Source: a virus. From it: a stretch of 39,792 nt of DNA. Each line of letters begins with the position of its first letter. The stretch's first letter is position 1. A program made the position numbers and the translations under genes. Positions 1 to 39,600 of the stretch are shown in pieces. The notes below the pieces were generated by a model. The model was not told the DNA's origin and searched no databases. It saw nothing but the letters and a program-made list of their open reading frames with translations. The stretch lies in IMG/VR virus record IMGVR_UViG_3300043409_002136, positions 1 to 39,792 of that record. One strand, 5' to 3'.

Positions 1-101
1 CATGTCAAGTTTTATTAAAACATCATTTTGATTTGTTTGGTCTAATTGGGGAAGGGCTTGCTGTCGATATTAACACGCTGTCGGTTCAGAATGACGGCTA
101 A
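1..101 (+). pseudogene. 3' fragment of a second copy of the 36359-36802 gene
   Basis: The first 126 bases match 36702-36827 exactly, so this is the last 33 codons of that gene, with its stop codon TAA inside R''. The fragment is cut by the contig end rather than by an evident mutation. After base 126 the sequence departs from the other copy, entering a different attC centre. It may be a second cassette copy or an assembly branch representing an alternative array order. Confidence 0.7.
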
Positions 102-231
102 CGTCTCGTGGCTTTGTGATGTTGCCTAAAAAATAAGACATAATCTTTAAATTAAAAAACAGAAAATGAAAACACAAACTGAAAATCAAATTGATAACCA
201 AAACGGCAATAAGTCAAAACCACTGTTAGCG
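96..231 (+). repeat. attC site 1
   Basis: R'' GGCTAAC at 96-102 and R' GTTAGCG at 225-231. The left arm GTGGCTTTG..GTTGCC pairs with GGCAATAAG..AACCAC on the right. The centre holds the start codon of the next gene (166). Length 136 bp. Confidence 0.85.
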
Positions 232-492
232 GCAGTTATTCTTCAATTAACTGGGCGTGGTTTTTCAAATAAAAATAGAGATAAAGTAAATGACGATAGG
301 TTAGGTATTAAATTGTCTTTTACGAATGAATTTGGTAAATACGTTGAAATTTATGAAGAAGATACTTATTGGCATATTTTACATTATGGATTTGATGGTA
401 AATATCTACCTATTGGATTTGATATTTTGTTTATTAAAGATATTCGAGAGTACGGAGTTTTTTTAGACGGTATTTTGGCTAATTGCCACTAA
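166..492 (+). CDS. Cassette protein of unknown function with attC-encoded N-terminus
   Basis: A 108-residue protein not recognised as a known family. It starts inside the preceding attC; the first 20 residues (with NGNKSKPLLA at about 14-23) are translated from the attC right arm and R', and the cassette-specific part follows. The crossover G^TTA falls exactly between codons 20 and 21. The stop TAA lies inside its own R'' (CACTAAC), so the mobile unit is open from end to end. The body is rich in acidic and aromatic residues (EIYEEDTYWHILHYGFDGKY), suggesting a small soluble beta-rich protein. A second copy begins at 39669 at the contig end. Confidence 0.65.
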   Translation: MKTQTENQIDNQNGNKSKPLLAAVILQLTGRGFSNKNRDKVNDDRLGIKLSFTNEFGKYVEIYEEDTYWHILHYGFDGKYLPIGFDILFIKDIREYGVFLDGILANCH

Positions 493-620
493 CGTTTTGC
501 CGTTTTGAGATGGTGGGGAAAAATAAATAACCTGCCCTCGGTTATACCGATAGTAGAAAAATACAAACTGATGTTACAGTTTATGACAGAACCCCCACTA
601 TATCAAAACGGCTGTTAGCG
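487..620 (+). repeat. attC site 2
   Basis: R'' CACTAAC at 487-493, R' GTTAGCG at 614-620. The left arm GCCGTTTTGAGATGGTGGGG pairs with CCCCACTATATCAAAACGGC on the right. Length 134 bp. Confidence 0.9.
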
Positions 621-700
621 GTTCGGCTTTTTAAATATTAAATTTTCGGTTACGCTTCCGCACCGTTTTTAAGTCGGAAACAATTTTAAAAATATTTATT
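621..700 (+). promoter_or_regulatory. Conserved cassette 5' segment with TTCCG/CGGAA hairpin
   Basis: The segment from about 648 (ttcggttacgcttccgcacc, then tttttaagtcggaa) to the ATG at 701 recurs almost unchanged at 35620-35672 and 38203-38253, each time between R' and a short hydrophobic plus-strand ORF. It contains a short TTCCG..CGGAA inverted repeat. It could be a leader for the plus-strand peptide or a terminator for the opposing minus-strand gene; the sequence alone does not decide. Confidence 0.45.
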
Positions 701-898
701 ATGAAACTTACTTTAAATAAAGAAAATTTTACTCAAGTAATGTGTTTTCTTCAAATTATTGCTTTTTTACTATTACTTGTTTCTTATATTCATTTATTGA
801 GTCTTTATAACGAGCAATGTCAGATTTCAGAAGATAACTTTCTTCTTTCAAAGCAACTTTTTCAAGATTTAAGAAATAATTCAGTAAACCAAAAGTAA
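701..898 (+). CDS. Small single-pass membrane protein (antisense to 756-956)
   Basis: A 65-residue ORF with one strong hydrophobic segment at about residues 13-35 (VMCFLQIIAFLLLLVSYIHL) and a polar helical tail. It begins directly after the conserved leader shared with two other cassettes that also open with short membrane peptides. It overlaps almost entirely an equally plausible minus-strand membrane protein (756-956), so one of the two may be an antisense shadow. No known family recognised. Confidence 0.4.
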   Translation: MKLTLNKENFTQVMCFLQIIAFLLLLVSYIHLLSLYNEQCQISEDNFLLSKQLFQDLRNNSVNQK

Positions 899-956
899 TG
901 GCTGTAATTAATGACAAAGCAGTTATTAATAATTGCATAGTTTGGAATAGAGACAT
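756..956 (-). CDS. Small membrane protein with coiled-coil tail
   Basis: 66 residues: a hydrophobic segment at about 6-30 (LLITALSLITAITFGLLNYF) followed by a charged, heptad-like helix (ALKEESYLLKSDIARYKDSI). The purine-rich aaagaagaaaaaaag before the ATG is a good Bacteroidota-type start context. It lies 42 bp downstream of 999-1205 on the same strand and is likely co-transcribed with it. It opposes the plus-strand ORF 701-898. The architecture (TM plus coiled coil) resembles many small phage membrane proteins; function unknown. Confidence 0.55.
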   Translation of the reverse strand: MSLFQTMQLLITALSLITAITFGLLNYFLNLEKVALKEESYLLKSDIARYKDSINEYKKQVIVKKQ

Positions 957-998
957 CTTTTTTTCTTCTTTTTCTAGTTTGGAAAAAGTTGTAAAATT

Positions 999-1205
999 TC
1001 ATCCTTTTTCTGTTAATCTAAAACTTTCCTTTGACGTTCGTTCTAAAAGCAAAAAATCTTTTTCTAATGAATATATAACCTTTTCAGCTGAATTATTGTC
1101 AGGTAAAAGATGTAATAAATCCATACCTGGCACAATCTTAATTTTTCCTGATTTTTTAAAGAAATCTATTACTTTTTCCGCAAGTTCTTTTTGTTTTTGA
1201 TTCAT
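999..1205 (-). CDS. Small winged-helix-like protein
   Basis: 68 residues beginning NQKQKELAEKVIDFFKKSG and ending ERTSKESFRLTEKG. The pattern of helices, then a short strand pair with LLLERTSKESFRLTEKG, is typical of winged-helix 'effector-like' domains of phage and Bacteroidota proteins, where the last segment is the wing. This is a shape-based suggestion only. It is the first gene of a minus-strand pair inside a cassette whose attC points the other way, which is uncommon in integron cassettes. Confidence 0.55.
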   Translation of the reverse strand: MNQKQKELAEKVIDFFKKSGKIKIVPGMDLLHLLPDNNSAEKVIYSLEKDFLLLERTSKESFRLTEKG

Positions 1206-1241
1206 TTTTTAGTTTTTTTGAGTGCGGTTCTTCAAGCTGAC

Positions 1242-1373
1242 CGCTAACGTTCTGCGTGTATAAGAAGTGGCGGATTAAGGAAGCCAAGACTTTCAGCAAG
1301 CACAGAACTTAATTAGAATTACAAAACTTTAAATTAACCGAAAACCCGCCATTTTTTATACACGCTGTTAGTG
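1242..1373 (+). repeat. attC site 3
   Basis: R'' CGCTAAC at 1242-1248, R' GTTAGTG at 1367-1373. The arms GCGTGTATAAGAAGTGGCGG and CCGCCATTTTTTATACACGC pair nearly perfectly. Length 132 bp. Confidence 0.92.
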
Positions 1374-1400
1374 GATGGGGTTTTCACAAAAACTGATAAA

Positions 1401-1625
1401 ATGAAAACATATTTAATCACATTTTCAACCAACTTTGAAGAAGCTGGTTTAATTATTACAACCGACAAAGGTATTGAATACGCAAAATCAAGAGCAGAAT
1501 ATTTAGGAGCTTGGGATGGCTATTCAATAGAAGAAATTAACACGACGGAAGAAGGTGTATATTGTTCTGTCAATTTTGGTAACGGATATTTCGGGAAGTT
1601 GAATGACAAGGGCGAGTGTTCATAG
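1401..1625 (+). CDS. Small cassette protein, unknown function
   Basis: 74 residues from the ATG preceded by aactgataaa; a GTG at 1371 inside R' is in frame but less likely. The sequence (MKTYLITFSTNFEEAGLIIT, then IEYAKSRAEYLGAWDGYSIEEI) suggests a compact alpha/beta domain of the kind often annotated only as hypothetical in Bacteroidota phages. It is the only gene of its cassette (1367-1638). No catalytic motif is visible. Confidence 0.65.
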   Translation: MKTYLITFSTNFEEAGLIITTDKGIEYAKSRAEYLGAWDGYSIEEINTTEEGVYCSVNFGNGYFGKLNDKGECS

Positions 1626-1631
1626 CCTTGC

Positions 1632-1762
1632 CACTAACGTATGGTGCTATACGAAGGAGGCGATTATTAGCACTAAAATTGATGCGGAGTACAAATGTTT
1701 GTTTAATCACAAATGTTTCTGCGGAGTACCGAACCGCCTCTTTTGTATAGCACGTGTTGTAT
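1632..1762 (+). repeat. attC site 4
   Basis: R'' CACTAAC at 1632-1638, R' GTTGTAT at 1756-1762. Arms GTGCTATACGAAGGAGGCG and CGCCTCTTTTGTATAGCAC pair. The next cassette's R'' ATACAAC is the exact complement of this R'. Confidence 0.92.
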
Positions 1763-1823
1763 GCTGGTGCGGTTTTGAAGCACTAATTTTAAATCAATAA
1801 CTAAAGCAATAATTAAATAAAAT

Positions 1824-2108
1824 ATGAAAAACTTTTTAGAATCAATAGATAATATTAAAGAAAATAAAGGTGCTATTTTTGAAAACAAAACTTACGAAGA
1901 ATTACAAAATGAAACGTTGGAAGTTAAAAAACTCACTCCAATAGAGCGAATAGGATATATAATTGATATGTATGAAAAAGAACGAGAAAGATTAATGCTT
2001 ATTCTTAAACCACACTATCAAAAACAAGAGTATGCAAAATCTAAGGAATACCAAGATAGATTAAACCATATTAGTGAATTTATAGCACAATTAAAAATAA
2101 TAAAATGA
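1824..2108 (+). CDS. Helical cassette protein, unknown
   Basis: 94 residues, strongly charged and predicted helical (ERIGYIIDMYEKERERLML, EYQDRLNHISEFIAQLKIIK). First of four closely packed genes in one cassette (1756-2686); its stop overlaps the start of the next gene by the ATGA-type arrangement, so translation is probably coupled. No family recognised. The four-gene operon layout inside a single cassette is larger than usual. Confidence 0.65.
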   Translation: MKNFLESIDNIKENKGAIFENKTYEELQNETLEVKKLTPIERIGYIIDMYEKERERLMLILKPHYQKQEYAKSKEYQDRLNHISEFIAQLKIIK

Positions 2109-2323
2109 AAACAGCAGTAGAGTATTTAGAAGAACGATTGAATTTATCTTTGGGTAATGAGTTAAAATCGTTACGAGGGCTTTTTGTCATTGCCAAAGAA
2201 ATGGAAAAATCCCAAATTGAGGAAGCAATAGAGAATGGTTATGCTGGGTGTTGTGGTAAAAAAACAACAGTAAAGTTGAAAGGTAATTTTTGGGAAAGAG
2301 AAGAAAATTGGAGTAAAAAATGA
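2105..2323 (+). CDS. Small phage-type accessory protein
   Basis: 72 residues starting MKTAVEYLEERLN and containing FVIAKEMEKSQIEEAIENGY. This pattern (a short N-terminal helix followed by 'AKEMEKSQI..A...G') is familiar from uncharacterised small proteins of Bacteroidota phages. It overlaps both neighbours by ATGA junctions. Function unknown; the similarity supports a phage accessory origin of the cassette. Confidence 0.65.
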   Translation: MKTAVEYLEERLNLSLGNELKSLRGLFVIAKEMEKSQIEEAIENGYAGCCGKKTTVKLKGNFWEREENWSKK

Positions 2324-2439
2324 AAAATTTCATAAACAAGGCGAATGAACTTAAAATTAGTTATTCAATGCTTTACAAAATGATTTTATCAAAAGAAATT
2401 AATTTTATAATAGTTTGTGGTAGATATTATTTTGATTAA
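2320..2439 (+). CDS. HTH-like micro-protein
   Basis: 39 residues (beginning MKNFINKANELKISYSMLYK) with the layout of an excisionase or HTH_17-type DNA-binding helix-turn-helix: helix, turn with SYSML, recognition helix, then a short 'IIVCGRYYFD' wing. Starts in the ATGA overlap with 2105-2323 and is followed 6 bp later by 2446-2661. It is short, so the DNA-binding call is tentative. Confidence 0.5.
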   Translation: MKNFINKANELKISYSMLYKMILSKEINFIIVCGRYYFD

Positions 2440-2445
2440 AAAGAT

Positions 2446-2661
2446 ATGGAGAATATTTTAAATTTAAAACTACCTTATTTAGGTATTAAAATAAATAAGG
2501 TAACAGATATTCCAAGAGTAGAATATTGTAACTTTCATTTTTGTGGCAGTTGGCTTACAATAAGTGGCAAAACTGAATTAATTGATATTAGTTGGCAAAA
2601 TTCAAAAACTGGAGAATTAATATCAAATGAAGTTTTTATTAATAGATTTTTTCAGTTATAG
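2446..2661 (+). CDS. Small cassette protein, unknown
   Basis: 71 residues, fourth gene of the four-gene cassette. It has aromatic and cysteine residues (YCNFHFCGSWLTISGKTELI) but no spaced metal-binding motif that I would defend. It ends 18 bp before R''. Probably translated from the same transcript as 1824-2439. Confidence 0.55.
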   Translation: MENILNLKLPYLGIKINKVTDIPRVEYCNFHFCGSWLTISGKTELIDISWQNSKTGELISNEVFINRFFQL

Positions 2662-2679
2662 CACTTTCGTAGCACTTGC

Positions 2680-2773
2680 ATACAACGTTATCGGGCTTGG
2701 CGAAGTGCCGCTACTCGAAACTTAAATTTTAGCACTAATTGTCCTGCGGCATTTTGCCAAACCCGTGTTATGG
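2680..2773 (+). repeat. attC site 5
   Basis: R'' ATACAAC at 2680-2686, R' GTTATGG at 2767-2773. Arms GGGCTTGGCGAAGTGCCGC and GCGGCATTTTGCCAAACCC pair. Shorter class, 94 bp. Confidence 0.92.
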
Positions 2774-2822
2774 GATAGTTTTAAAAACCTTTTAGGGTGG
2801 GCATTTAAACGATAAATTAAAA

Positions 2823-3239
2823 ATGAAAGCAACAGTAAAAATTGAAAAAGAAGTTGAATTGAAAACTTTAGTAGTAAAAGCAGGTGTACGCTATTACGAA
2901 GATGCAACCGTTAATGGTGTTGAAGATACGGAAGGCGATTTAATACCTTGTAAGCAGGGCGAATTATGGTGTCCGATTATTGATATTGATAGCGGTGTAA
3001 TTACCAATTGGAAACAAGGTGTAAAAGCCGAAGTACATTATAAAGTTTGCGATGCAGGTAGTTACTACTTACAAGATGCAGAAGGCAATACCGTTTTGTC
3101 AATTGAACAGGACTATGTGCCTAAAATGATGTGTCCAAAAGAAAGCGGTTACGGAGATTATATCATTATGGATATTGATGAAAACGGTAAAATCGCAAAC
3201 TTTAGACAAACACTTGACGGATTTGTTGATGAGGATTAA
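2823..3239 (+). CDS. Cassette protein, unknown (138 aa)
   Basis: 138 residues, acidic and beta-rich (YYEDATVNGVEDTEGDLIP, DSGVITNWKQGVKAEVHYK). Ends IANFRQTLDGFVDED. It resembles hypothetical proteins common in Bacteroidota genomes and phages but I cannot name the family. Its GC content appears higher than that of neighbouring genes, consistent with an independent origin. Single gene of cassette 2767-3277. Confidence 0.7.
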   Translation: MKATVKIEKEVELKTLVVKAGVRYYEDATVNGVEDTEGDLIPCKQGELWCPIIDIDSGVITNWKQGVKAEVHYKVCDAGSYYLQDAEGNTVLSIEQDYVPKMMCPKESGYGDYIIMDIDENGKIANFRQTLDGFVDED

Positions 3240-3270
3240 CGGTGCGGTGGGAAAAGGTTTTTAAAATTTC

Positions 3271-3346
3271 CCATAACGTTAAAACTACACGCTGGTTGCC
3301 TATTTATTCCAATGCTTCGGCAACTAGCTTGTAGTGATTGTTATAT
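3271..3346 (+). repeat. attC site 6 (short class)
   Basis: R'' CCATAAC at 3271-3277 (complement of GTTATGG that opens the cassette), R' GTTATAT at 3340-3346. Arms ACTACACGCTGGTTGCC and GGCAACTAGCTTGTAGT pair. 76 bp. Confidence 0.9.
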
Positions 3347-3390
3347 TCTCGGCTTTTTTTCACACAATTATTAATCAATAAAATACAAAT

Positions 3391-3624
3391 ATGACACTAA
3401 AAGAAAAATTTGAAGAAGTAGAAATTATGTTTGAAAACCAAACAGGTAAATTAAAATACGATGAATTATGCGAAGCACCAAATGAATGTGTAAAAATAGC
3501 CAAAGACTATGTTAATGAACAAATTGAAAAAATATGCGATTCAGACAACCTTTCTAAAATTATCTATTCAAAATCATTTGCGGAAGCAAGGAGAATAATT
3601 AGAACTTTATTACAGCAAGAGTAG
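3391..3624 (+). CDS. Helical cassette protein, unknown
   Basis: 77 residues, acidic and helical, beginning MTLKEKFEEVEIMFENQTGK and ending RIIRTLLQQE. It resembles small helical accessory proteins of Bacteroidota phages in size and composition. It is the last gene of the array; its cassette ends at the orphan R'' (3654-3660). Confidence 0.6.
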   Translation: MTLKEKFEEVEIMFENQTGKLKYDELCEAPNECVKIAKDYVNEQIEKICDSDNLSKIIYSKSFAEARRIIRTLLQQE

Positions 3625-3653
3625 CTTTGGTTACAAAGTTGCTCGAAGCTGGA

Positions 3654-3660
3654 ATATAAC
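3654..3660 (+). repeat. Orphan R'' at the array's distal end
   Basis: ATATAAC at 3654-3660, preceded by GGA, is complementary to the cassette's own 5' end (GTTATATTC at 3340). No arms or R' follow; the sequence passes into phage backbone. The last attC therefore appears truncated. Confidence 0.6.
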
Positions 3661-3691
3661 TAATGGCTACAACTTAAAAATGTATTACAAA

Positions 3692-30575: not shown

Positions 30576-30616
30576 TATTTAAAAACTAGAATAGAGTAAT
30601 AAATAGTTTGATCTAT

Positions 30617-30985
30617 ATGAATAAACTTTCAAAAAATACCAAATTGCCCCAATGCGACAAAACCGCTGTTAGCAAATCGTTCTTGCTTTCGGGTAAATGT
30701 CAGCAGGATTTTTACGATTATTGCGTAGAAAATAAAGATAGAATGTTTGGAAGATTATTAGGAGATGAAGAAGATGTTTTAGATGAATTGAGTTATTTAT
30801 TTTCAATTTCTGTTTATCCCTTAATGATTCAGTTTTTAGACACAAAACAATATAAAGGCGAACCTTTATATTCAATGTGTTTCAGTTATTTTTATAAATT
30901 CAAAATTCAAAGTCAAAGTCAATTTGATATTTGGATTCAATCAATTGAAAAAGCAAATGAACTTTATAACGATAACGCTTTTTAG
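30617..30985 (+). CDS. First cassette protein, unknown
   Basis: 122 residues from ATG 30617 (a TTG three codons upstream is also in frame). The first 18 residues are encoded by the half-site, so the start codon lies outside the mobile part. The body is helical and acidic (QQDFYDYCVENKDRMFGRLL; EDVLDELSYLFSISVYPLM). No family recognised. As the first cassette it could be transcribed from the promoter at 30377. Confidence 0.6.
   Translation: MNKLSKNTKLPQCDKTAVSKSFLLSGKCQQDFYDYCVENKDRMFGRLLGDEEDVLDELSYLFSISVYPLMIQFLDTKQYKGEPLYSMCFSYFYKFKIQSQSQFDIWIQSIEKANELYNDNAF
30644..30674 (+). repeat. attC right half-site (array entry, attI-like position)
   Basis: TTGCCCCAATGCGACAAAAC, CGCT and R' GTTAGCA (30668-30674) match the right arm of other sites (for example 34145-34175) but no left arm or R'' is found in the 70 bp upstream. 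It is either a truncated attC or the array's primary insertion site. Confidence 0.65.
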
Positions 30986-30991
30986 AATGTT

Positions 30992-31127
30992 TGCTAACGT
31001 TTCGTGGCTTTGTCTTGTTGCCTAAAAAATAAGACATAATCTTTAAATTAAAAAACAGAAAATGAAAACACAAAATGAAAATCAAATTGATGACCAAAAC
31101 GGCAATAAATCAAAACCAATGTTAGTG
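30992..31127 (+). repeat. attC site 7
   Basis: R'' TGCTAAC at 30992-30998, R' GTTAGTG at 31121-31127. Arms GTGGCTTTGTCTTGTTGCC and GGCAATAAATCAAAACCAA pair. Start codon of the next gene lies in the centre (31062). 136 bp. Confidence 0.9.
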
Positions 31128-31436
31128 GCAGGTTTTTTGACTTCCAATAAAATTTATAGAAAATATATGTTTATGTATGGAATATTGTCGGTTTTATACG
31201 TTCTTGAATATTTCGAGTTTGAAGAAAATTACGAGGAATGCCAAAAGATTATTGATGCTATAAAAGAGCAAGAAAAAGCACTTAATACTACTTTATTTTC
31301 AACGATAACAACCGAAACTATAAAAGAAGTAGTTGAGAGTTATAAAAAATTCAATCTTACTGGTAAAAATGCAATTGAGAATAGTAAATATTATTCAACT
31401 TTAATTCTGAAAGAGATTGAATGCACTTTCGTTTAA
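31062..31436 (+). CDS. Cassette protein with attC-encoded N-terminus, unknown
   Basis: 124 residues. Residues 1-20 (with NGNKSKPML) come from the attC and resemble the leaders at 166 and 33307; the crossover falls between codons 20 and 21. The body begins LVAGFLTSNKIYRKYMFMYG and is helical (EECQKIIDAIKEQEKALNTT). No known family. The cassette's own 5' part has no start codon near the boundary, so the leader is probably the real start. Confidence 0.6.
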   Translation: MKTQNENQIDDQNGNKSKPMLVAGFLTSNKIYRKYMFMYGILSVLYVLEYFEFEENYEECQKIIDAIKEQEKALNTTLFSTITTETIKEVVESYKKFNLTGKNAIENSKYYSTLILKEIECTFV

Positions 31437-31442
31437 ACTTGC

Positions 31443-31558
31443 TTGTAACGTCCTAGTGATTGGCGAAGAAGCGGATAAATAAGCCTAAATTTTAAAGACA
31501 CAAAACAAATTATTGAATTAATAAACTAACCCGCTTTTTTGCCAAACACTTGTTATAG
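31443..31558 (+). repeat. attC site 8
   Basis: R'' TTGTAAC at 31443-31449, R' GTTATAG at 31552-31558. Arms GTGATTGGCGAAGAAGCGG and CCGCTTTTTTGCCAAACAC pair. 116 bp. Confidence 0.88.
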
Positions 31559-31589
31559 GCAGGATGGGTTTTTAAAACGAAAAATTATT

Positions 31590-31949
31590 ATGGGATTAGA
31601 CACTTCACACAATTGTTGGCACGGACGTTATTCATTTTTTAACAGATTTAGATATTCTTTAGGTCATCAAATAGGAATTGATTTAGATGATTATTATGGA
31701 TATGGTAAAACAGGAGTAAAAGATTTAACAAAAATTGAACACGAATTAATGCCTTTATTTAATCATTCAGATTGCGATGGAATATTAACAGTTGAAGAAT
31801 CAAAAAAAATTGTAATCGGTTTGAATAAGGTTTTACAAAACTTTAATGATAAAATAGAATATCATTATGATTTTAAAGAAAATATAATTCAATTTCGAGA
31901 TGGTTGTTTAGATGCTATTGAACGAAATGAGGAAGTAGATTTTCATTAA
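31590..31949 (+). CDS. Cassette protein, unknown (119 aa)
   Basis: 119 residues from the ATG after aaaattatt; a longer reading from 31539 begins in the attC and is less likely. Starts MGLDTSHNCWHGRYSFFNRF and contains 'HELMPLFNHSDCDGILTVEESKKI', a pattern like small proteins in Bacteroidota phages that carry an H-S-D-C-D-G segment. Function unknown. It shares its cassette (31552-32353) with two very small genes that have their own promoter. Confidence 0.65.
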   Translation: MGLDTSHNCWHGRYSFFNRFRYSLGHQIGIDLDDYYGYGKTGVKDLTKIEHELMPLFNHSDCDGILTVEESKKIVIGLNKVLQNFNDKIEYHYDFKENIIQFRDGCLDAIERNEEVDFH

Positions 31950-32045
31950 TAACGTAAATTTAGCCGTATTTGTTTGATTATCAATGAAAAGTAAAATAAT
32001 TTAAAAATAAATCACTTTTTATTTTAATATATCATATATATAGTA

Positions 32046-32053
32046 TATCTTTA
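32046..32053 (+). promoter_or_regulatory. Internal cassette promoter
   Basis: TATCTTTA followed by CC, close to TAnnTTTG and nearly identical to the element at 37409 (TATCTTTAC). It precedes the 32087 gene by 34 bp. The -33 element is not clear. Confidence 0.5.
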
Positions 32054-32086
32054 CCTCATGATTAATAACAAATAAAACATACGATT

Positions 32087-32200
32087 ATGAAAACTTTAAC
32101 AATTGAACAAAAAGAGCAAGAATTAAGAAATATTAATTTTTTCGTTGGTGGTTTAACTGATGAAGCAATTGAATACTATTATAACAAGTTAATTGCATAA
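32087..32200 (+). CDS. 37-residue micro-protein
   Basis: MKTLTIEQKEQELRNINFFV then GGLTDEAIEYYYNKLIA. Overlaps the next start by TAATG, so the two are probably translated together. Preceded by its own promoter. No family recognised. Confidence 0.5.
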   Translation: MKTLTIEQKEQELRNINFFVGGLTDEAIEYYYNKLIA

Positions 32201-32340
32201 TGAAAAAAATAATAGATATACCAAACGAAATACTTCAAGAACTAAAAATACTTGCAGTAAAATCTAACAAAGACCTTAAAAACTTTATTCAAGACGAACT
32301 TAAAAAAATTGTCGAAAACTCTCAATCGAAGCAGTCTTAA
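32200..32340 (+). CDS. RHH-like micro-protein
   Basis: 46 residues: MKKIIDIPNEILQELKILAV, SNKDLKNFIQDELKKIVEN. This fits the RHH fold (strand 'KKIIDIP', helix, 'NKDLKNFI' turn-helix) of antitoxin-type regulators. Forms a two-gene unit with 32087-32200, an arrangement common for toxin-antitoxin or autoregulated pairs in cassettes; no toxin motif is visible in the partner. Confidence 0.6.
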   Translation: MKKIIDIPNEILQELKILAVKSNKDLKNFIQDELKKIVENSQSKQS

Positions 32341-32346
32341 TATGGC

Positions 32347-32469
32347 TTATAACGTTGGGTGCTTGGCGAAGTGGCTGAACCGAATGTTGAATATAATTAC
32401 TAAACTTAATAATTAAAACGAATGTCAATAGTAGTACAAAACGGCAATATTGCCAATACCGTGTTATCG
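32347..32469 (+). repeat. attC site 9
   Basis: R'' TTATAAC at 32347-32353, R' GTTATCG at 32463-32469. Arms GGTGCTTGGCGAAGTGGC and GCAATATTGCCAATACC pair. Start codon of the cREC gene is inside (32422). 123 bp. Confidence 0.85.
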
Positions 32470-32871
32470 GATGTTTTTCTTTTTCTCGATGATATTCGTG
32501 AACCTGAACACGCCTTTGAATACACAAAACAAGAAATGTTCCTAAAACAAAAATGGCAAGTTGTAAGGAATTTTGATGAGTTCAAAAGTCATATTGAAAC
32601 AAACGGAATGCCTATTTTTATTTCGTTTGACCACGACTTAGCCGATACTCACTACACGCCCGAACACTTATGGACTGATTATGATAAATCAAAAGAATGG
32701 CAAGATAAACAAGTCCATAAAGAAAAGACTGGTTATGAATGTGCAATGTGGTTAGTAGATTTTTGCATAGACAATAATTTGCAATTACCTAAATACTATT
32801 GTCATTCAATGAACCCTGTCGGTAAAGATAAAATTGTCAGTTTATTACGGTCTTTCCAAAATAGCCACTAA
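32422..32871 (+). CDS. Cyclic-phosphate-processing receiver-like (cREC) domain protein
   Basis: 149 residues. After an attC-encoded leader of 14 residues the domain reads VFLFLDDIREP, WQVVRNFDEFKSHIETNGMP, IFISFDHDLADTHY, TGYECAMWLVDFCIDNNLQLP and HSMNPVGKDKI. These are the conserved blocks of the cREC domain, a receiver-like fold proposed to process cyclic nucleotide or cyclic phosphate ligands, with paired aspartates in LDD and DHD. Complete. The stop lies in its own degenerate R''. A signalling or anti-defence role in a phage cassette is inference. Confidence 0.8.
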   Translation: MSIVVQNGNIANTVLSDVFLFLDDIREPEHAFEYTKQEMFLKQKWQVVRNFDEFKSHIETNGMPIFISFDHDLADTHYTPEHLWTDYDKSKEWQDKQVHKEKTGYECAMWLVDFCIDNNLQLPKYYCHSMNPVGKDKIVSLLRSFQNSH

Positions 32872-32998
32872 AGTTTCGCAGCTTTGAGATGGTGGGGAAA
32901 AATAAAACCTAGTCTTTCGGTTGAACACGAAATTGAAAGATACAAAAAAAACATTGAATTAAACCTAATCTAGCAATAGCGTGTAATTGCTGTTATAA
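32866..32998 (+). repeat. attC site 10, degenerate and mosaic
   Basis: R'' position reads CACTAAA (32866-32872) instead of AAC, R' GTTATAA at 32992-32998. The left arm GCTTTGAGATGGTGGGG is the type of site 2, but the right arm (GCAATAGCGTGTAATTGCTG) is that of another type, so they do not pair. Probably inactive. Confidence 0.65.
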
Positions 32999-33022
32999 GC
33001 TGTGTTTTCAGCACTAAATATT

Positions 33023-33235
33023 ATGAAAATTCAAGTAAAATTAGATTACAACGACAAAATTTATTTATCAAATACAACAGAATGCAATCAAAATGATGTT
33101 TCAGAAGCTAAAAATTTAATGGAACAAATTGCTCAAGGTAAAATAACATATTTATCAATTCAAAGTGGTTTTGAAGAATATTACTTTACAAAAGAAGTTT
33201 TAGAAAAATCAATTATAACGGTTATCGTAACATAG
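33023..33235 (+). CDS. Small cassette protein, unknown
   Basis: 70 residues from ATG 33023. MKIQVKLDYNDKIYLSNTTE, then helix SEAKNLMEQIAQGKI, then YLSIQSGFEEYYFTKEVLEK and SIITVIVT. The ending resembles small beta-alpha-beta proteins of Bacteroidota phages with 'F.S......YYF.kevl..SIi.v.v'. Function unknown. Confidence 0.6.
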   Translation: MKIQVKLDYNDKIYLSNTTECNQNDVSEAKNLMEQIAQGKITYLSIQSGFEEYYFTKEVLEKSIITVIVT

Positions 33236-33236
33236 A

Positions 33237-33372
33237 CACTAACGGTTCCCTGTCTTTGTCTTGTTGCCGATAAAATAAGACCTAATCTTTAAATTTAAAA
33301 CAGAAAATGAAAAGTACAAAACAATCATCAAATAAAGCCGAAAACGGGAATAAATCAAAACCACTGTTAGCC
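33237..33372 (+). repeat. attC site 11
   Basis: R'' CACTAAC at 33237-33243, R' GTTAGCC at 33366-33372. Left arm CTGTCTTTGTCTTGTTGCC faces GGGAATAAATCAAAACCAC. Start codon of the next gene inside (33307). 136 bp. Confidence 0.88.
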
Positions 33373-33621
33373 GTAGTTATTGTAGATAAAACAGGCAGTC
33401 AATTGAATAATGGGGATATAATTAATCTTCATCAAAAGGTTAATGGGGAAAACTTATTTGTTGTTTTAGACGTTTATAATTTAGATGTGAGATATGCTCA
33501 TAATTTAGCATACAAATATCAATATGATATGTTTGAATTATTATCTCCTTCAAAATTAAACGGAGATATTGATTTTGAAATAGTTGGTAATTTATATCCG
33601 CATTTGGAAAATTACCGCTAA
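33307..33621 (+). CDS. Cassette protein with attC-encoded N-terminus, unknown
   Basis: 104 residues; the first 20 come from the attC (NGNKSKPLL just before the crossover). The body, VVIVDKTGSQLNNGDIINLH then KVNGENLFVVLDVYNLDVRY, looks like a small beta-rich domain with an 'L..GDIi..' opening such as YopX or KOW-like folds have. Stop codon lies in its R'' (CGCTAAC). Function unknown. Confidence 0.62.
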   Translation: MKSTKQSSNKAENGNKSKPLLAVVIVDKTGSQLNNGDIINLHQKVNGENLFVVLDVYNLDVRYAHNLAYKYQYDMFELLSPSKLNGDIDFEIVGNLYPHLENYR

Positions 33622-33692
33622 CGTTTCGCCGCTTTGTACTGCCACCTATGCGGTTTAGTGGATTCGGCGGTAGTTCAAGACTGCTGTTAGTA
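33616..33692 (+). repeat. attC site 12 (short class)
   Basis: R'' CGCTAAC at 33616-33622, R' GTTAGTA at 33686-33692. Arms GCCGCTTTGTACTGCCACC and GGCGGTAGTTCAAGACTGC pair. 77 bp. Confidence 0.88.
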
Positions 33693-33693
33693 G

Positions 33694-33807
33694 ATGGACG
33701 GGTTGCTAAAGATAAAACATAGTGAAGTTAAGGCATGTGACATTCCGAAACCGTATCGACCTTTACGGCTATGTTTTTTAAAATATAAATTAATTTATAA
33801 AAACTAA
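33694..33807 (+). CDS. Possible 37-residue ORF at the cassette start
   Basis: ATG two bases after R', reading MDGLLKIKHSEVKACDIPKP and ending KYKLIYKN, stop 5 bp before the next ATG. It could be a short leader coupled to 33813-34070. No independent support; may be chance. Confidence 0.25.
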   Translation: MDGLLKIKHSEVKACDIPKPYRPLRLCFLKYKLIYKN

Positions 33808-33812
33808 ATAAA

Positions 33813-34070
33813 ATGAAAAACAAAGAATTAAAAACATTATGGAAAGTTGCAAAATCATTTTGGATCAGCGCTACATTGGTTTGGATTGTTGAAACTACAA
33901 TTTTTCTAATTATTGAAGGATGGCATTTAAAAGCCACGCATCCAGTAGAAATATGGATTGATAAATTGGTTGGTGATATGTGGAATTTTGCAAGATGGAT
34001 AACAGTATTGATTTGTATTCATTATATTATCAAATTGAATATGAAAGGGTCTAAAGAAACGGAATCGTAG
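33813..34070 (+). CDS. Two-pass membrane protein, unknown
   Basis: 85 residues with hydrophobic segments at about 17-36 (FWISATLVWIVETTIFLIIE) and 59-75 (FARWITVLICIHYIIKL), Trp-rich, with a charged tail. Only clear gene of its cassette (33686-34083). The small size and membrane character match other cassettes here. No family recognised. Confidence 0.65.
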   Translation: MKNKELKTLWKVAKSFWISATLVWIVETTIFLIIEGWHLKATHPVEIWIDKLVGDMWNFARWITVLICIHYIIKLNMKGSKETES

Positions 34071-34076
34071 TCTTGC

Positions 34077-34175
34077 TACTAACGTTTTTCGGCTTTGTGT
34101 CTGTTTGCCCCTTGCACAAAGTTTCAAGTTACCACAAATGTTGATGGGGCAAATAGCACAAAACCGATGTTATAC
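34077..34175 (+). repeat. attC site 13
   Basis: R'' TACTAAC at 34077-34083 (complement of GTTAGTA that opens the cassette), R' GTTATAC at 34169-34175. Arms CGGCTTTGTGTCTGTTTGCC and GGCAAATAGCACAAAACCG pair very well. 99 bp. Confidence 0.92.
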
Positions 34176-34214
34176 GCTGGGCGGATTATCAGCAGAATTT
34201 AAAAAAGGAAAAAA

Positions 34215-34577
34215 ATGAGTTTAGATGTTTATTTAACACGAAAAAAATGGGTAAGCTACGATGAAGGTAAAACCCACACAGAAGAAAACGAAGAAGTTTA
34301 TTGGGCAAACATTACCCATAACTTATGTAAAATGGCAGGTGAAGCAGGAATTTACGAAGCACTTTGGCGACCAGAAGAAATTGGTAAAACAAAGGCAAGT
34401 GAAATTGTGAAATTACTTGAAAAAGGATTATTTGATTTAAAAGCAAGACCTGAACATTTTGAAACTTTTAATTCACTCAATGGTTGGGGAATGTATCAAC
34501 ATTTTGTTCCTTTTGTCGAAAAGTATTTAGAAGCCTGTAAAGAATATCCTGATTCTGTTATCGAAGTGTCAAGGTAG
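34215..34577 (+). CDS. Widespread phage/bacterial protein of unknown function
   Basis: 120 residues: MSLDVYLTRKKWVSYDEGKT, then 'YWANITHNLCKMAGEAGIYEALWRPEEIG', 'KASEIVKLLEKGLFDLKARPEHFETFN', 'GWGMYQHFVPFVEKYLEACKEYPDSVIEVSR'. I recognise this as a conserved hypothetical family found in many phages and bacteria ('NITHNL.KMA..AGIY..LWRPEE'), without known activity. The purine-rich aaaaaggaaaaaa precedes the ATG. Complete. Confidence 0.8.
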   Translation: MSLDVYLTRKKWVSYDEGKTHTEENEEVYWANITHNLCKMAGEAGIYEALWRPEEIGKTKASEIVKLLEKGLFDLKARPEHFETFNSLNGWGMYQHFVPFVEKYLEACKEYPDSVIEVSR

Positions 34578-34583
34578 CCTTGC

Positions 34584-34714
34584 AGGTAACGTTTGTCAGC
34601 CTTATTTATTATGGGATTATGAAAACGAAACTTTAAATTAAGACAAAATGAAATTAGAAAAACTAAACTTTGATTTATACGAAATGCCTAGCTTGAATAT
34701 AACCGATGTTATAA
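34584..34714 (+). repeat. attC site 14 (arms degenerate)
   Basis: R'' AGGTAAC at 34584-34590, R' GTTATAA at 34708-34714. Arms pair only partly. Start codon of the next gene at 34648 lies inside. 131 bp. Confidence 0.7.
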
Positions 34715-34947
34715 GCTTTTTTATTTCGGAGCAACAAAAAAAGGAGGAAGAAATTTTCACTTCTGCTTTGCGAATAATGGCAGAACCGCCAATTAAAGGC
34801 GATATTACAAAAGGTAAAGTAAGGTGGAGAGGAATAAGAATTGTGAAATATGACGATGGCTTTAAATATACAAAATGGTTAGAGCAGAGAGGAAATCAAA
34901 TTAGCCCGAAAATTGTCTTTACTGCCATTATCGGAAATGGCTTATAA
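34648..34947 (+). CDS. Cassette protein with attC-encoded N-terminus, unknown
   Basis: 99 residues; the first 20 (MKLEKLNFDLYEMPSLNITD) come from the attC. The body is helical then basic (VRWRGIRIVKYDDGFKYTKW; LEQRGNQISPKIVF). Stop codon lies in its R'' (TTATAAC). The crossover is in a different codon phase from the 166/31062/33307 group. Function unknown. Confidence 0.6.
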   Translation: MKLEKLNFDLYEMPSLNITDVISFFISEQQKKEEEIFTSALRIMAEPPIKGDITKGKVRWRGIRIVKYDDGFKYTKWLEQRGNQISPKIVFTAIIGNGL

Positions 34948-35074
34948 CGTTTGCGTGTATGGGAAGTGGCGGAGAGTTTGCCGAATACCTCCAAGTACAA
35001 ACTGATTTTTAAATTAATAAACCAAACTCAAAAACACAAAACTAACCCGCCATTTCTTATACACGTTGTTAGTG
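34942..35074 (+). repeat. attC site 15
   Basis: R'' TTATAAC at 34942-34948 (exact complement of the cassette's opening GTTATAA), R' GTTAGTG at 35068-35074. Arms GCGTGTATGGGAAGTGGCGG and CCGCCATTTCTTATACACG pair. 133 bp. Confidence 0.93.
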
Positions 35075-35095
35075 GATGGCTTTATATTCGGAATT

Positions 35096-35221
35096 ATGAT
35101 AAAAGTATTAAAATCAACTGCAACTAATTTTAAGGAATTAGAAAAATTAAATGTTTTTTTAGAAAAAAGTAAAATTGAACTACACCAAACAGTTTTACAT
35201 CCAAAACGGATGGGTAGGTAA
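35096..35221 (+). CDS. 41-residue ORF overlapping 35175-35438
   Basis: MIKVLKSTATNFKELEKLNV, helical, ending PKRMGR. It starts 22 bp after R' and overlaps the next ORF by 47 bp in another frame. It may be a coupled leader, or the two may be one gene broken by a frameshift. Confidence 0.4.
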   Translation: MIKVLKSTATNFKELEKLNVFLEKSKIELHQTVLHPKRMGR

Positions 35222-35438
35222 TGCAATTCTTTGGTGGGGAATTGACAGTAAAGGTTACACCACCGAAATTGATAAGGCTGGGCGATATACCTATGAAGAA
35301 GCCAAAAAAATTATTCAGCGACCAGAAGATAAGGCTTGGGAGTGTAAGCACGTTGATGAGTGTTTGAAAGCCCACAAAAGAATTATTGATGGGCAGTATT
35401 TGGATAGTAAAAAATGTCTGAAAGGACGGAGAATGTAG
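35175..35438 (+). CDS. Conserved phage-type protein, TTG start or frameshifted
   Basis: 87 residues from TTG 35175 (no ATG available). 'KQFYIQNGWVGNAILWWGIDSKGYTTEIDKAGRYTYEEAKKII' and 'DKAWECKHVDECLKAHKRIID' match a small hypothetical family familiar from phages ('YIQNG..GNailWW..dskGYtt.i..A..yt.eeA..i'). The N-terminus looks natural just at the TTG, so the domain is complete. Translation probably depends on the overlapping ORF upstream. Confidence 0.65.
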   Translation: MNYTKQFYIQNGWVGNAILWWGIDSKGYTTEIDKAGRYTYEEAKKIIQRPEDKAWECKHVDECLKAHKRIIDGQYLDSKKCLKGRRM

Positions 35439-35445
35439 CAATGAC

Positions 35446-35579
35446 TGCTAACGTTTCGCAGCTACACGAGGTTTGGGAAAAAGTACGCCTTAATTTTCGG
35501 TTGAAGACTGAACTTTAAAATACAAAACCAAGTTTCAGTTAAAGACCGAAACCCAAATCTCGTGTAACTGCTGTTAGCC
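35446..35579 (+). repeat. attC site 16
   Basis: R'' TGCTAAC at 35446-35452, R' GTTAGCC at 35573-35579. Arms GCAGCTACACGAGGTTTGGG and CCCAAATCTCGTGTAACTGC pair. 134 bp. Confidence 0.93.
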
Positions 35580-35672
35580 GTTCGGTTTTTTATTTATTAC
35601 AATTTTCACGTTTCATTTTTCGGTTACGCTTCCGCACCGCTTTTAAGTCGGAAGTATTTTAAATTAATTATT

Positions 35673-35780
35673 ATGTACGTTTCAACATTATTATTCGTTT
35701 TTACTATCGTTTCTTTCTGCAATCTCGCTTTTATTGTTGGTTATATTCTTGGTGGTATTTATAGGAACAAAAGAAGATGA
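35673..35780 (+). CDS. 35-residue membrane peptide
   Basis: MYVSTLLFVFTIVSFCNLAF then IVGYILGGIYRNKRR: one transmembrane helix and a basic end. Preceded by the same conserved leader as 701 and 38254. It overlaps the 3' end of the minus-strand gene 35691-36146. The toxin-like look (short hydrophobic, basic tail, antisense partner) is suggestive only. Confidence 0.45.
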   Translation: MYVSTLLFVFTIVSFCNLAFIVGYILGGIYRNKRR

Positions 35781-36146
35781 TTTTTTTGTTTTTTCTATTA
35801 CAGAATAAACTTCAAAAGTTTTAGCCCAATACCCAATTCCAAAGCCAAAAATACAAAACCCAAATAAAATGCTAATTAATTCAAAATTATTTTTATCAGA
35901 TATGAAATTGTTATTTTTTATTTTTTTAGATCCGTTTACTTTTATAAAATCTTTTATTCTTTTAGCGTGTTCAGAAAACTTACCAGTACCTAATTGGTTT
36001 ATTTCAAAGGCAAGATTAGAATTTTCGGGTAAATGTAAATATGCAAAGTCCATAAACTCTAAAATATTATTTTTCTCTTCGTTTTTTAAATCACTAAAAA
36101 GTTCAATATATGAATCACATTTTTTTAAAATATCTTTTTTTTTCAT
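35691..36146 (-). CDS. Membrane-anchored helical protein in a reverse-oriented cassette
   Basis: 151 residues from ATG 36146. Soluble helical N-terminal part (KKKDILKKCDSYIELFSDLK; FAYLHLPENSNLAFEINQLG), one transmembrane segment at about 100-118 (ELISILFGFCIFGFGIGYWA), and a polar Ser/Asn/Thr tail. It shares a 5' leader (cagtttacagaaccgaaac) with the minus-strand genes at 38272 and 39424. Orientation is opposite to the attC sites. Unknown function. Confidence 0.65.
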   Translation of the reverse strand: MKKKDILKKCDSYIELFSDLKNEEKNNILEFMDFAYLHLPENSNLAFEINQLGTGKFSEHAKRIKDFIKVNGSKKIKNNNFISDKNNFELISILFGFCIFGFGIGYWAKTFEVYSVIEKTKKSSSFVPINTTKNITNNKSEIAERNDSKNE

Positions 36147-36170
36147 TTCGTTTCGGTTCTGTAAACTGAC

Positions 36171-36301
36171 AGCTAACGTTTTGTGGCTTGGCGAAGGCAA
36201 GGATTAGAAGTACAAATGCTTGTTTTATTCCAAATGCTCAATAGAGTACCAAATCTGAAAGTTAGCAATAAAGCCTTTCTTTCATAAAACCCTTGTTAGC
36301 C
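36171..36301 (+). repeat. attC site 17
   Basis: R'' AGCTAAC at 36171-36177, R' GTTAGCC at 36295-36301. Left arm GTGGCTTGGCGAAGGC; right arm GCCTTTCTTTCATAAAACCC pairs only partly. 131 bp. Confidence 0.75.
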
Positions 36302-36358
36302 GTTCGTTCTTTTTCGTTCGGTTTTAAAATTAAAATTATTAACAATTAAAATATAAAA

Positions 36359-36802
36359 ATGAAATTAGAAATTAGGCACTTAACACCTTACTTCCCTTAT
36401 GGGTTAGAATGTATGGTAAGCGATTATTACAATGGTTATAATGGCACAAATGAAACAAAAAAAGCCAAATTAAACGCTATTTGGTCTGATAATAGTTATT
36501 CTTTTTTTGATTTAGTGGAAAGCGAAAGAGGTTTTGAAAAGATAATGCCTATACTTCGTCCTTTATCTCAAATTAAAGAATATTTTGAGCCAATATTTGA
36601 AACAGACAAGGAAGTAAATGAGTTTTTGTCTTACGAAGCAACTACGCCTTTTTCTGTCGAAGAAATATTGAACTATAAGTTTGAATACTTGCCTTATGGA
36701 ACATGTCAAGTTTTATTAAAACATCATTTTGATTTGTTTGGTCTAATTGGGGAAGGGCTTGCTGTCGATATTAACACGCTGTCGGTTCAGAATGACGGCT
36801 AA
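36359..36802 (+). CDS. Conserved Bacteroidota phage protein, unknown
   Basis: 147 residues: MKLEIRHLTPYFPYGLECMV, 'LRPLSQI', 'YLPYGTCQVLLKHHFDLFGLIGEGLAVDINTL'. The opening 'I.HL.PYFPYGL' and the closing 'LPY...Q.LLKHHFD.FGLI..GLA.dIN' are recurrent in small proteins of phages and prophages of Flavobacteriia and Bacteroidia. Stop codon lies in R'' (GGCTAAC). A partial second copy opens the window (1-101). Confidence 0.78.
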   Translation: MKLEIRHLTPYFPYGLECMVSDYYNGYNGTNETKKAKLNAIWSDNSYSFFDLVESERGFEKIMPILRPLSQIKEYFEPIFETDKEVNEFLSYEATTPFSVEEILNYKFEYLPYGTCQVLLKHHFDLFGLIGEGLAVDINTLSVQNDG

Positions 36803-36931
36803 CGTCTCGTGGCTTTGTGATGTTGCCGAAAAAACACACACTAAACTTTAAATTTAAGACAAATGTTTGAGATACAAAACCAACTTTCAGTTAAGCCCGA
36901 AGTAGGCAATAGCACAAAACCGCTGTTATCT
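36797..36931 (+). repeat. attC site 18
   Basis: R'' GGCTAAC at 36797-36803 (complement of the cassette opening GTTAGCC), R' GTTATCT at 36925-36931. Left arm GTGGCTTTGTGATGTTGCC; right arm GGCAATAGCACAAAACCGC. Bases up to 36827 are repeated at 1-126. Confidence 0.9.
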
Positions 36932-37258
36932 TCTCGGCTTTTTAAATTTCGATTTTACGACACAACTTTAAAAAAAATGTGTTATAGAAATCCTTTAACT
37001 TATGATTTTTGTGTTAAAGATATAATCCCTATGCAATTTACAGGGTTATTAGACAAAAATGGAATTAAAATTTTTGAAGGCGATATAATAGAATATACGC
37101 AACATCATTTTAATACGGATATGATAAAAACAAAACGAAAAGTCGTTGAGTGGAAATATGATAAATGGGGCGTTTATGAAACTAATGCAGGAGAAAGTGA
37201 TATACAAATTTTAGGGAATATTTTTGAGAATGTGGATTTATTGCAAGACGTTCTTTAA
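36863..37258 (+). CDS. YopX family protein
   Basis: 131 residues. After an attC-encoded leader (about 21 residues) come FKFRFYDTTLKKMCYRNPLT, 'MQFTGLLDKNGIKIFEGDIIEYT', 'KRKVVEWKYDKWGVYE' and 'IQILGNIFENVDLLQ'. These are the YopX hallmarks: M-Q-[FY]-TGL-D-K-[NG]G..I-[YF]-EGDI, then V.W....G.., then I-GNI-[FY]-ENP-[ED]-LL. YopX-like proteins are common phage and prophage accessory proteins with no settled biochemical role. Crossover falls between codons 21 and 22. Confidence 0.88.
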   Translation: MFEIQNQLSVKPEVGNSTKPLLSSRLFKFRFYDTTLKKMCYRNPLTYDFCVKDIIPMQFTGLLDKNGIKIFEGDIIEYTQHHFNTDMIKTKRKVVEWKYDKWGVYETNAGESDIQILGNIFENVDLLQDVL

Positions 37259-37264
37259 GCTGGA

Positions 37265-37341
37265 ATATAACGTTCAAGCTACACGCTGGTTGCCTAGCAC
37301 GTTCGCTTAGTTTCGGCGGTAGGTTGTAGTGGTTGTTGCCT
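37265..37341 (+). repeat. attC site 19 (short class)
   Basis: R'' ATATAAC at 37265-37271, R' GTTGCCT at 37335-37341 (by alignment with site 6). Arms centred on GCTACACGCTGGTTGCC and CGGTAGGTTGTAGT. 77 bp. Confidence 0.8.
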
Positions 37342-37386
37342 GCTTTTATTTTTTTATAAATATTTTAAAAATAATTACATTTTTTC

Positions 37387-37416
37387 TTGTTTATATAAAA
37401 ATTAGTCGTATCTTTA
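37387..37416 (+). promoter_or_regulatory. Internal cassette promoter
   Basis: TTG (37387-37389), 19 bases, TATCTTTA (37409-37416); close to the Bacteroidota consensus. It lies 39 bp before the ATG at 37455, so the cassette carries its own expression signal. Confidence 0.7.
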
Positions 37417-37454
37417 CACCATAGAAACAAACAATAATCTAAAAAATAGAAATT

Positions 37455-37679
37455 ATGAAAGAAATTAACGAAATATTAAATACTCTAACAGGTAAAAAAA
37501 TGATAGCTAATTTATCAATGTGTAAAGACATGGATAAATCAAAACTGTCTGAAATGTTATGGATTGATGAATTGCCATTGCAACAACAAGAGTTGTTCGA
37601 TACAATATATCAATTAGTTGATATTACAAGACGTGATCTTGCTATTAGATTGATTAACAATAAGCCTATTGTAAAATAG
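37455..37679 (+). CDS. Cassette protein with own promoter, unknown
   Basis: 74 residues: MKEINEILNTLTGKKMIANL, 'CKDMDKSKLSEMLWIDELPLQQQELFDTIYQLVD', ending IRLINNKPIVK. Helical, possibly a small regulator. First gene of a cassette (37335-38047) that also holds a remnant reading frame and a 56-residue ORF. The cassette's promoter and multi-ORF content resemble toxin-antitoxin cassettes, but no family is evident. Confidence 0.6.
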   Translation: MKEINEILNTLTGKKMIANLSMCKDMDKSKLSEMLWIDELPLQQQELFDTIYQLVDITRRDLAIRLINNKPIVK

Positions 37680-37834
37680 GCTTTAAAAACTTAACAATTA
37701 AAAAAAAATTAAAAGCAGGCAACATAATTAAAATATTAAAATATCCTTTAAATATTAATATTCCTAATCAAACTATAACTAAAATTAAAGATAGTTATTT
37801 TTGGAGTGAAAACTTTAGCGGAGATAACTTATAA
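37673..37834 (+). pseudogene. Open frame without a standard start
   Basis: An open frame of about 50 codons overlapping the end of 37455-37679 contains LKAGNIIKILKYPLNINIPN then TKIKDSYFWSENFSGDNL. It has protein-like composition but no ATG, GTG or TTG near its beginning. It may be decayed, start at ATA/ATT, or be read by frameshifting from the upstream gene. Confidence 0.3.
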
Positions 37835-37868
37835 TAAATTTAATATCATATAGTTTTTATTTCATAAT

Positions 37869-38039
37869 ATGCAAAGACAATATATAATAATACTAATTAA
37901 ACCCTTTAGCGAACCAATAGCAAGGGGTAATTTTAAAAAGCTATGTGATCAATTCAATTTACCTTATCATAGCTTAAAGATGCTTAAATTTCCAATTAAG
38001 TACAAAGATTGGATTATTTACAAAGTCGAGTTTAAATAG
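37869..38039 (+). CDS. 56-residue ORF, unknown
   Basis: MQRQYIIILIKPFSEPIARG, 'NFKKLCDQFNLPYHSLKMLK', ending YKDWIIYKVEFK. The middle part resembles a helix-turn-helix (LCDQFNLPYHSLK) and the end a short strand pair, as in small phage DNA-binding proteins. Ends just before R'' (38041). Tentative. Confidence 0.5.
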   Translation: MQRQYIIILIKPFSEPIARGNFKKLCDQFNLPYHSLKMLKFPIKYKDWIIYKVEFK

Positions 38040-38040
38040 G

Positions 38041-38173
38041 CACTAACGTCCCGGTGCTTGACGAGGTTTGGGATAAAGTACGCCTTAATTTTCGGTTGAA
38101 GACTGAACTTTAAAACACAAAACCAACTTTAAATTAAGCCTAAAACCCAAATCTTGCCAAACACCTGTTATGC
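38041..38173 (+). repeat. attC site 20
   Basis: R'' CACTAAC at 38041-38047, R' GTTATGC at 38167-38173. Arms GGTGCTTGACGAGGTTTGGG and CCCAAATCTTGCCAAACACC pair. 133 bp. Confidence 0.93.
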
Positions 38174-38253
38174 CTTCGGTTTTTTTATTTATTTCAATTT
38201 TCGGTTACACTTCTGCACCGTTTAAGTCGGAAGTATTTTTAAATTAATAAGTT

Positions 38254-38748: not shown

Positions 38749-38778
38749 ATTTTCGGTGTTTCGGTTTTCTAAACTGAG

Positions 38779-38911: not shown

Positions 38912-38973
38912 AATCGGTTTTCTTTTTTCCACCGAATTAAGCGAAAAAAATTAACTTTACAAAAACAATAATT

Positions 38974-39567: not shown

Positions 39568-39600
39568 AATATTTTCGGTATTTCGGTTCTCTAAACTGTT

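Follow-up and report, generated by a model that had tools for sequence, protein, structure and literature searches.

Predicted gene starts inside the attC sites of an inverted, integron-like cassette array in a probable flavobacterial phage

The sequence is best explained as that of a flavobacterial phage carrying an integron-like array of attC + ORF units, in which many ORFs start within their own attC, crossover takes place at the outer box and the recombinase acts in trans. We assign this reading a probability of about 0.8. The translation start inside attC is itself predicted from the reading frames.

Each cassette would consist of an attC and, behind it, an ORF directed away from that attC and towards a fixed attI-like end of the array. 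In cassettes that lack a start codon behind the attC, the ATG and the first 13-23 codons would fall within that same attC, in its A-rich open centre and inner arm. Transcription presumably enters from the far end of the array and runs towards attI. Ribosomes would start in the loop and cross the inner TGTTA box, yielding a hydrophilic leader, common to several cassettes, joined to proteins that are otherwise unrelated, among them methyltransferases, YopX and cREC. The outer box, TAAC^G in the sense of the ORF and CG^TTA on the other strand, would serve for excision and insertion, and leader and gene would thus normally travel together, in frame. The recombinase supplied in trans is most likely a host integron-type integrase and, in some phages, probably a related integrase encoded beside attI. 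Placing the start within attC would save DNA and provide a place to start that has no Shine-Dalgarno sequence; a plausible reason is that a genome of limited size favours short cassettes.

The window phage and its cassette array

The window, meaning the whole stretch of DNA analyzed (virus record IMGVR_UViG_3300043409_002136, 39,792 nt), encodes a terminase, portal, head protease, tape measure and endolysin. The closest terminases are those of the Nonlabens phages P12024L/S (61 percent), so the host is probably a flavobacterium. On the minus strand, a 570-residue protein at 7049-8761 contains many short NTIGD/FxxN-type repeats and is probably a tail or fibre protein. The array and its features are as follows.

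30608..39792, + strand: upstream part of the cassette array, continuing at window 1-3660; the contig breaks off at both ends in forks that lie within the array
1..3660, + strand: attI-proximal part of the array, with attC at 99, 490, 1245, 1635, 2683 and 3274
3651..3670, + strand: putative attI-like array end, GGAATATAAC^TAATGGCTAC, towards which the ORFs read; assigned by analogy with the fixed site of the isolates
97..230, + strand: attC with in-frame leader, belonging to the ORF-166 cassette; outer (crossover) box TAACGTC on the left, inner TGTTAGC on the right
166..492, + strand: start-less ORF led by MKTQTENQIDNQNGNKSKP, with no other ATG
30617..30985, + strand: ORF from a half attC at the upstream end of the array; ATG 51 nt before the box, phase 1
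30994..31127, + strand: attC with leader; ATG at 31062, 59 nt before G
31062..31436, + strand: leader-started ORF, MKTQNENQIDDQNGNKSKP running into MLVAG
32348..32469, + strand: attC with leader; ATG at 32422, 41 nt before G
32422..32871, + strand: cREC_REC domain protein (PF20274, E 2.7e-21) with 13-residue leader MSIVVQNGNIANT; domain from residue 20
33239..33372, + strand: attC with leader; ATG at 33307
33307..33621, + strand: leader-started ORF, MKSTKQSSNKAENGNKSKP running into LLAVV
34586..34714, + strand: weak attC-like site with leader, phase 1; ATG at 34648, 60 nt before G; unscored by the finder
34648..34947, + strand: leader-started ORF, phase 1
36799..36931, + strand: attC with leader; ATG at 36863, 62 nt before G
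36863..37258, + strand: YopX protein (PF09643, E 2.8e-13), its native start apparently replaced by leader MFEIQNQLSVKPEVGNSTKP

An earlier note on this DNA had named seven ORFs with starts in attC, and all seven are found where it placed them, starting upstream of the TGTTA box and reading through it. The distance from ATG to the G of TGTTA is 59 nt for the ORFs at 166, 31062 and 33307, as that note had reported, and 51, 41, 60 and 62 nt for those at 30617, 32422, 34648 and 36863. Another 59-nt copy lies at 39669 and runs off the contig end. The G occupies codon position 3 in five of the seven ORFs, which confirms the codon boundary at G^TTA described for five, and position 1 in the other two. 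The site at 30617 is indeed only the right half of an attC.

The sites were scored with a finder written for this analysis, which combines paired outer and inner boxes with arm complementarity; most sites escape a search for strict complementarity, since their spacers are of unequal length. Five of the seven window sites are recovered (scores 23-39), and 18 attC-like hairpins reach a score of 25 in the window as against about 2.4 in its shuffles. In leader-type attC the stems are short, the ATG sits in a large A-rich loop, and folding is weak (z of -1 to +0.8); the single leaderless attC that was folded is strong (z of -6.4). Within the window, this is the difference between the leaderless site at 35445-35579 and the leader-type site at 36796-36931. 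A trade-off between coding and hairpin strength is possible.

Positions 1-126 of the window equal 36702-36827, and 163-289 equal 39666-39792, so that the contig terminates on both sides within attC, in assembly forks of about 127 bp. Two different neighbours precede the ORF166 cassette, and the attC of its first copy is chimeric; array variants thus seem to coexist in the sample.

Crossover site and mobile unit

Crossover was located in the arrays of 17 isolated virulent Flavobacterium phages of the genera Muminvirus, Lillamyvirus and Hattifnattvirus (PMC7077304). Of 78 distinct near-identity breakpoints, 48 fall at TAAC^G in the left box and 10 at TGTTA in the right box. The earlier note had taken the latter, which it called R', as the main crossover. 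That assignment does not hold, and the codon edge that it had tied to the crossover lies at the other, non-crossover box. In pairs that match on one flank, the break is at TAACGT^ when the upstream gene is common, and at T^GTTA in some pairs with a common downstream gene.

The clearest rearrangement separates lillamy9-6 from 9-7, whose aligned arrays are more than 99 percent identical. A 440-bp segment, delimited left box to left box, is relocated in 9-7: where it is absent, the exact empty site CATAACGTTAAAG is found, and it is reinserted at the array end (TTATAAC^TACAATATTACATGATAAAA) at the insertion point TAAC^TACAATATT. A cassette deletion from mumin9-1 to 6-3 has the same boundaries. All 14 isolates checked have the end site TAAC^TACAATATTACATG, next to different neighbours, and it behaves like an attI. 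The core common to the isolate junctions is only TAAC to TAACGTT, and the crossover base within TAAC is not assignable. Excision and insertion of units at this core are observed in related isolates and not in the window phage. The relocated lillamy cassette has its own ATG; no relocation of a leader-type cassette was caught within the isolate set. Among the viral contigs, whole leader cassettes are replaced behind an identical neighbour (L069-2486 versus L016-5303), and leader plus ORF are conserved behind different upstream neighbours (L059/L064 and L067/L068). Separately, genome lengths differ by exactly 129 bp in three sister pairs of isolates (MN812227/MN812228, MN812224/MN812226 and MN812209/MN812210), a difference not visible in the array stretches compared.

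The isolate breakpoints and the relocation at the left box indicate that the mobile unit is an attC together with the ORF that follows, which in turn would place the start codon in the gene's own attC. This bears on an alternative in which the arrays have classical polarity, crossover is at G^TTA, and a cassette lacking a start is fused on insertion to the leader of the preceding attC. It accounts for one methyltransferase ORF that carries three unrelated in-frame leaders with breaks exactly at T^GTTA, and for the 10 isolate breakpoints at the right box. It is unlikely in view of the 48 breakpoints at the left box and of the relocated unit, an attC with its downstream ORF. Among the pairs compared, none combines the same upstream gene and attC with a different downstream gene. 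Classical polarity also predicts that start-less ORFs will often stand behind a leaderless or wrong-phase attC, which is rarely seen.

The proposal in the earlier note that start-less ORFs are fused to an attC-encoded leader therefore survives in part. The in-frame leader encoded by attC stands; its supply by the attC of the previous cassette at each insertion does not, as the moving unit in close isolates is attC plus following ORF, with crossover at the opposite box. Exchange does occur at TGTTA but is narrow in range, seen in one other gene besides the methyltransferase family, whose three unrelated leaders are all in frame. Since the leader swap is seen for essentially one family, the idea of in-frame fusion at TGTTA survives as that of a rarer or older process.

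Mosaic boundaries could also arise through homologous recombination between similar attC repeats, with no site-specific recombination involved. The forked assembly end of the window, which lies inside attC and joins halves of different attC, fits such an origin. The isolates argue otherwise, with a core of only TAAC to TAACGTT and a segment that left an exact empty site when excised and reappears at a fixed site at the end of the array, and we regard this origin as quite improbable.

Leaders, reading frames and protein N-termini

The attC + ORF arrangement with an internal start extends well beyond the window. A degenerate pattern of the right arm matches 39 viral stretches and a second pattern 32; the first has 3 matches among 84,980 bacterial and archaeal genomes. 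In most of the 39 stretches with the same right arm the ATG lies at exactly 59 or 62 nt, and in most viral stretches it lies 44, 50, 59 or 62 nt before the G, with the frame continuing into the ORF. Roughly one in three of these viral cassettes lacks a start codon downstream of attC, as do seven ORFs in the window. The leaders have N-G/S-N-S/K-S/T-K-P as their last residues, and the proteins behind them are unrelated. They occur in three frame groups, each with ORFs in the matching frame: the ORFs behind a group shifted by one base (MIEVQNQLEIKPETAIAQNR running into CY) are open in that shifted frame, and the remaining frame is used by a third group. Leader lengths vary in steps of three within each group, partly by construction, as leaders are defined as in frame. 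No stop intervenes between the leader frame and the ORF, and the frames cross the box uninterrupted.

The earlier note had suggested checking phase conservation across related arrays. When attC were permuted among the ORFs of 164 distinct viral sites, each ORF being open for 45 codons, a strong in-phase bias was found for ORFs with a late first ATG. When no ATG occurs in the 30 codons after the box, 54 of 62 ORFs have an in-phase ATG leader, compared with 18.0 expected and at most 29 in any of 5000 permutations. Where an ATG comes early, such leaders are no commoner than by chance (11 of 42 ORFs, 10.4 expected). With increasing distance to the first internal ATG, from within 12 codons of the box in the lowest class to 30 or more in the highest, the phase match rises through 26, 49, 74 and 87 percent, against about 25-29 percent when permuted. 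Eight of the 62 late-ATG ORFs are without a matching leader, and some of these are probably false sites.

Conserved domains (Pfam) begin 4-12 residues past the box in Dcm, PAPS_reduct, YopX and cREC proteins. For example, Dcm starts at residue 25 both after a 20-residue leader (L010, profile position 3) and after a frame-2 leader of 17 residues (L021, profile position 4), and YopX starts at residue 25 after 16 leader residues (L062, profile position 2). Two PAPS_reduct domains (L014 and L044) start just after the box, near profile position 1, and the cREC_REC domain of the window starts at residue 20, profile position 3. In YopX cassettes of the leader type the next ATG lies inside the domain. 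One cassette (L009/L046) keeps its own start, MREIKFRAW, which we take to be the usual beginning of YopX-type proteins. The short distance from box to domain in the YopX, Dcm and PAPS-reductase proteins suggests that the leader replaces the native N-terminus. Furthermore, deposited isolate annotations include CDS that start inside attC (snusmum6-1 gp005; filifjonk9-1 gp007, gp009, gp010 and gp017).

No signal of purifying selection on the leader amino acids was detected (N/S ratio about 1.1). The leader peptide itself may be irrelevant; since its amino acids are apparently unconstrained, it probably serves to provide a start and an uninterrupted frame, the sequence being maintained by recombination. 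It is very improbable that the leaders are a gene-finder artefact, with an A-rich attC that merely happens to be open and translation really beginning at an ATG, GTG or TTG further on: unselected leader residues and chance-level leaders in early-ATG ORFs fit this, but the phase match reaches 87 percent where the first ATG is at least 30 codons off (29 percent permuted), the next ATG would cut conserved domains (YopX, Dcm, cREC), and leaders shifted by one base pair with shifted ORFs.

The start contexts contain 53 percent A and 5 percent G, and none of 114 has a Shine-Dalgarno-like motif, an absence expected for Bacteroidota. The Bacteroidota promoter motif TAnnTTTG was also sought upstream of the leader ATGs and was rejected, with 4 of 114 occurrences.

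Orientation, recombinases and known integrons

Viral ORFs read towards attI in 198 of 207 cases and isolate cassettes in 81 of 81; neither follows the classical layout, with attC at the 3' end of a gene that reads away from attI. Flavobacterium chromosomes contain attC of the same family with the ORFs the opposite way (45 of 47), in the classical order of attI, gene and attC. The box consensus AACGTTA / TAACA is common to phage and chromosomal sites, and complementary outer and inner boxes with a GTTR core are present, 15-fold over shuffles. Polaribacter P12002L has few, mixed attC-like sites and no leaders of the kind described here.

No integron integrase was found in the window phage or in the three isolates tested. 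A TIGR02249 search of Flavobacterium genomes identifies a tyrosine recombinase of 341-361 residues, sometimes about 580, with Phage_int_SAM_4 and Phage_integrase domains. The five tested score 180-222 bits, under the 265-bit cut-off, and their alignment has a gap over the stretch that carries the integron insert in IntI. Up to 12 attC lie within less than 20 kb beside this recombinase. The 347-residue class without the usual insert stands beside attC arrays in many chromosomes (L115-L134) and is a candidate lineage of integrons, one that stays under the cut-off of the standard integrase model. Four viral contigs encode a shorter relative just beyond an attI-like site (L021:10989-11828, L010:1743-2543, L058 and L023 (minus strand); 267-280 residues in the two measured). 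The site reads TAAC^TACTATATGTA in three of the four, L021 has about 19 attC, and the two viral recombinases scored fall below the TIGR02249 cut-off. These contigs are possible complete phage integrons.

We think it fairly likely that flavobacterial phages have an attC system in common with host chromosomal integrons but keep a separate, inverted cassette pool. Nearly all ORFs of this pool would read towards attI and often start in their own attC, so that attC would act as portable gene starts with an N-terminal leader common to unrelated proteins; the cassettes would be moved by host-type or phage-borne integrases without the classical IntI insert.

The phage arrays resemble phage CALINs (Qi et al. 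2023, PMC9892861), which likewise have paired-box attC, putative hairpins here, with a single small gene to each cassette, methyltransferase cargo, and clusters in virulent phages without an integrase. Here, unlike in phage CALINs, the ORF follows its own attC, reads towards attI and starts inside attC; the main text of PMC9892861 mentions neither Flavobacterium nor start codons. The parallel with ORF-11 of class 1 attI1 drawn in the earlier note is a weak one (PMC8876359). As with ORF-11, ORF-17 and ORF-18, a translation start in a recombination site aids a start-less cassette, but ORF-11 encodes a separate short peptide whose translation is coupled, whereas here the leader belongs to the cassette itself, lies in attC and continues in frame into the ORF; no separate peptide ended by a stop before the cassette was found. 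Fused class 1 cassettes likewise show read-through of attC remnants into the next gene, although they are reportedly rare and arise by attC loss (PMC4670013), while here attC is kept and the layout is systematic. Like those of Treponema integrons (PMC3607928), chromosomal intI genes of Flavobacterium are transcribed towards attI, in the direction of the cassettes; the phage arrays differ in that their cassette ORFs are inverted instead. In the literature searched, which excludes preprints and most subscription journals, we found no prior description of attC start codons, inverted cassettes or Flavobacterium integrons.

Integron theory takes a cassette gene to have its attC at the 3' end and to point away from attI, downstream of a platform promoter. 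The viral cassette pool would break both rules, with a recombination site that is coding sequence and start region at once, and it offers a testable reason for the segregation of orientation between phage and host cassettes. It may also be a route by which virulent phages swap anti-restriction genes; methyltransferase genes have been suspected in host range (Nilsson et al., PMC7077304). Isolates are available in which the movement of cassettes would be measurable.
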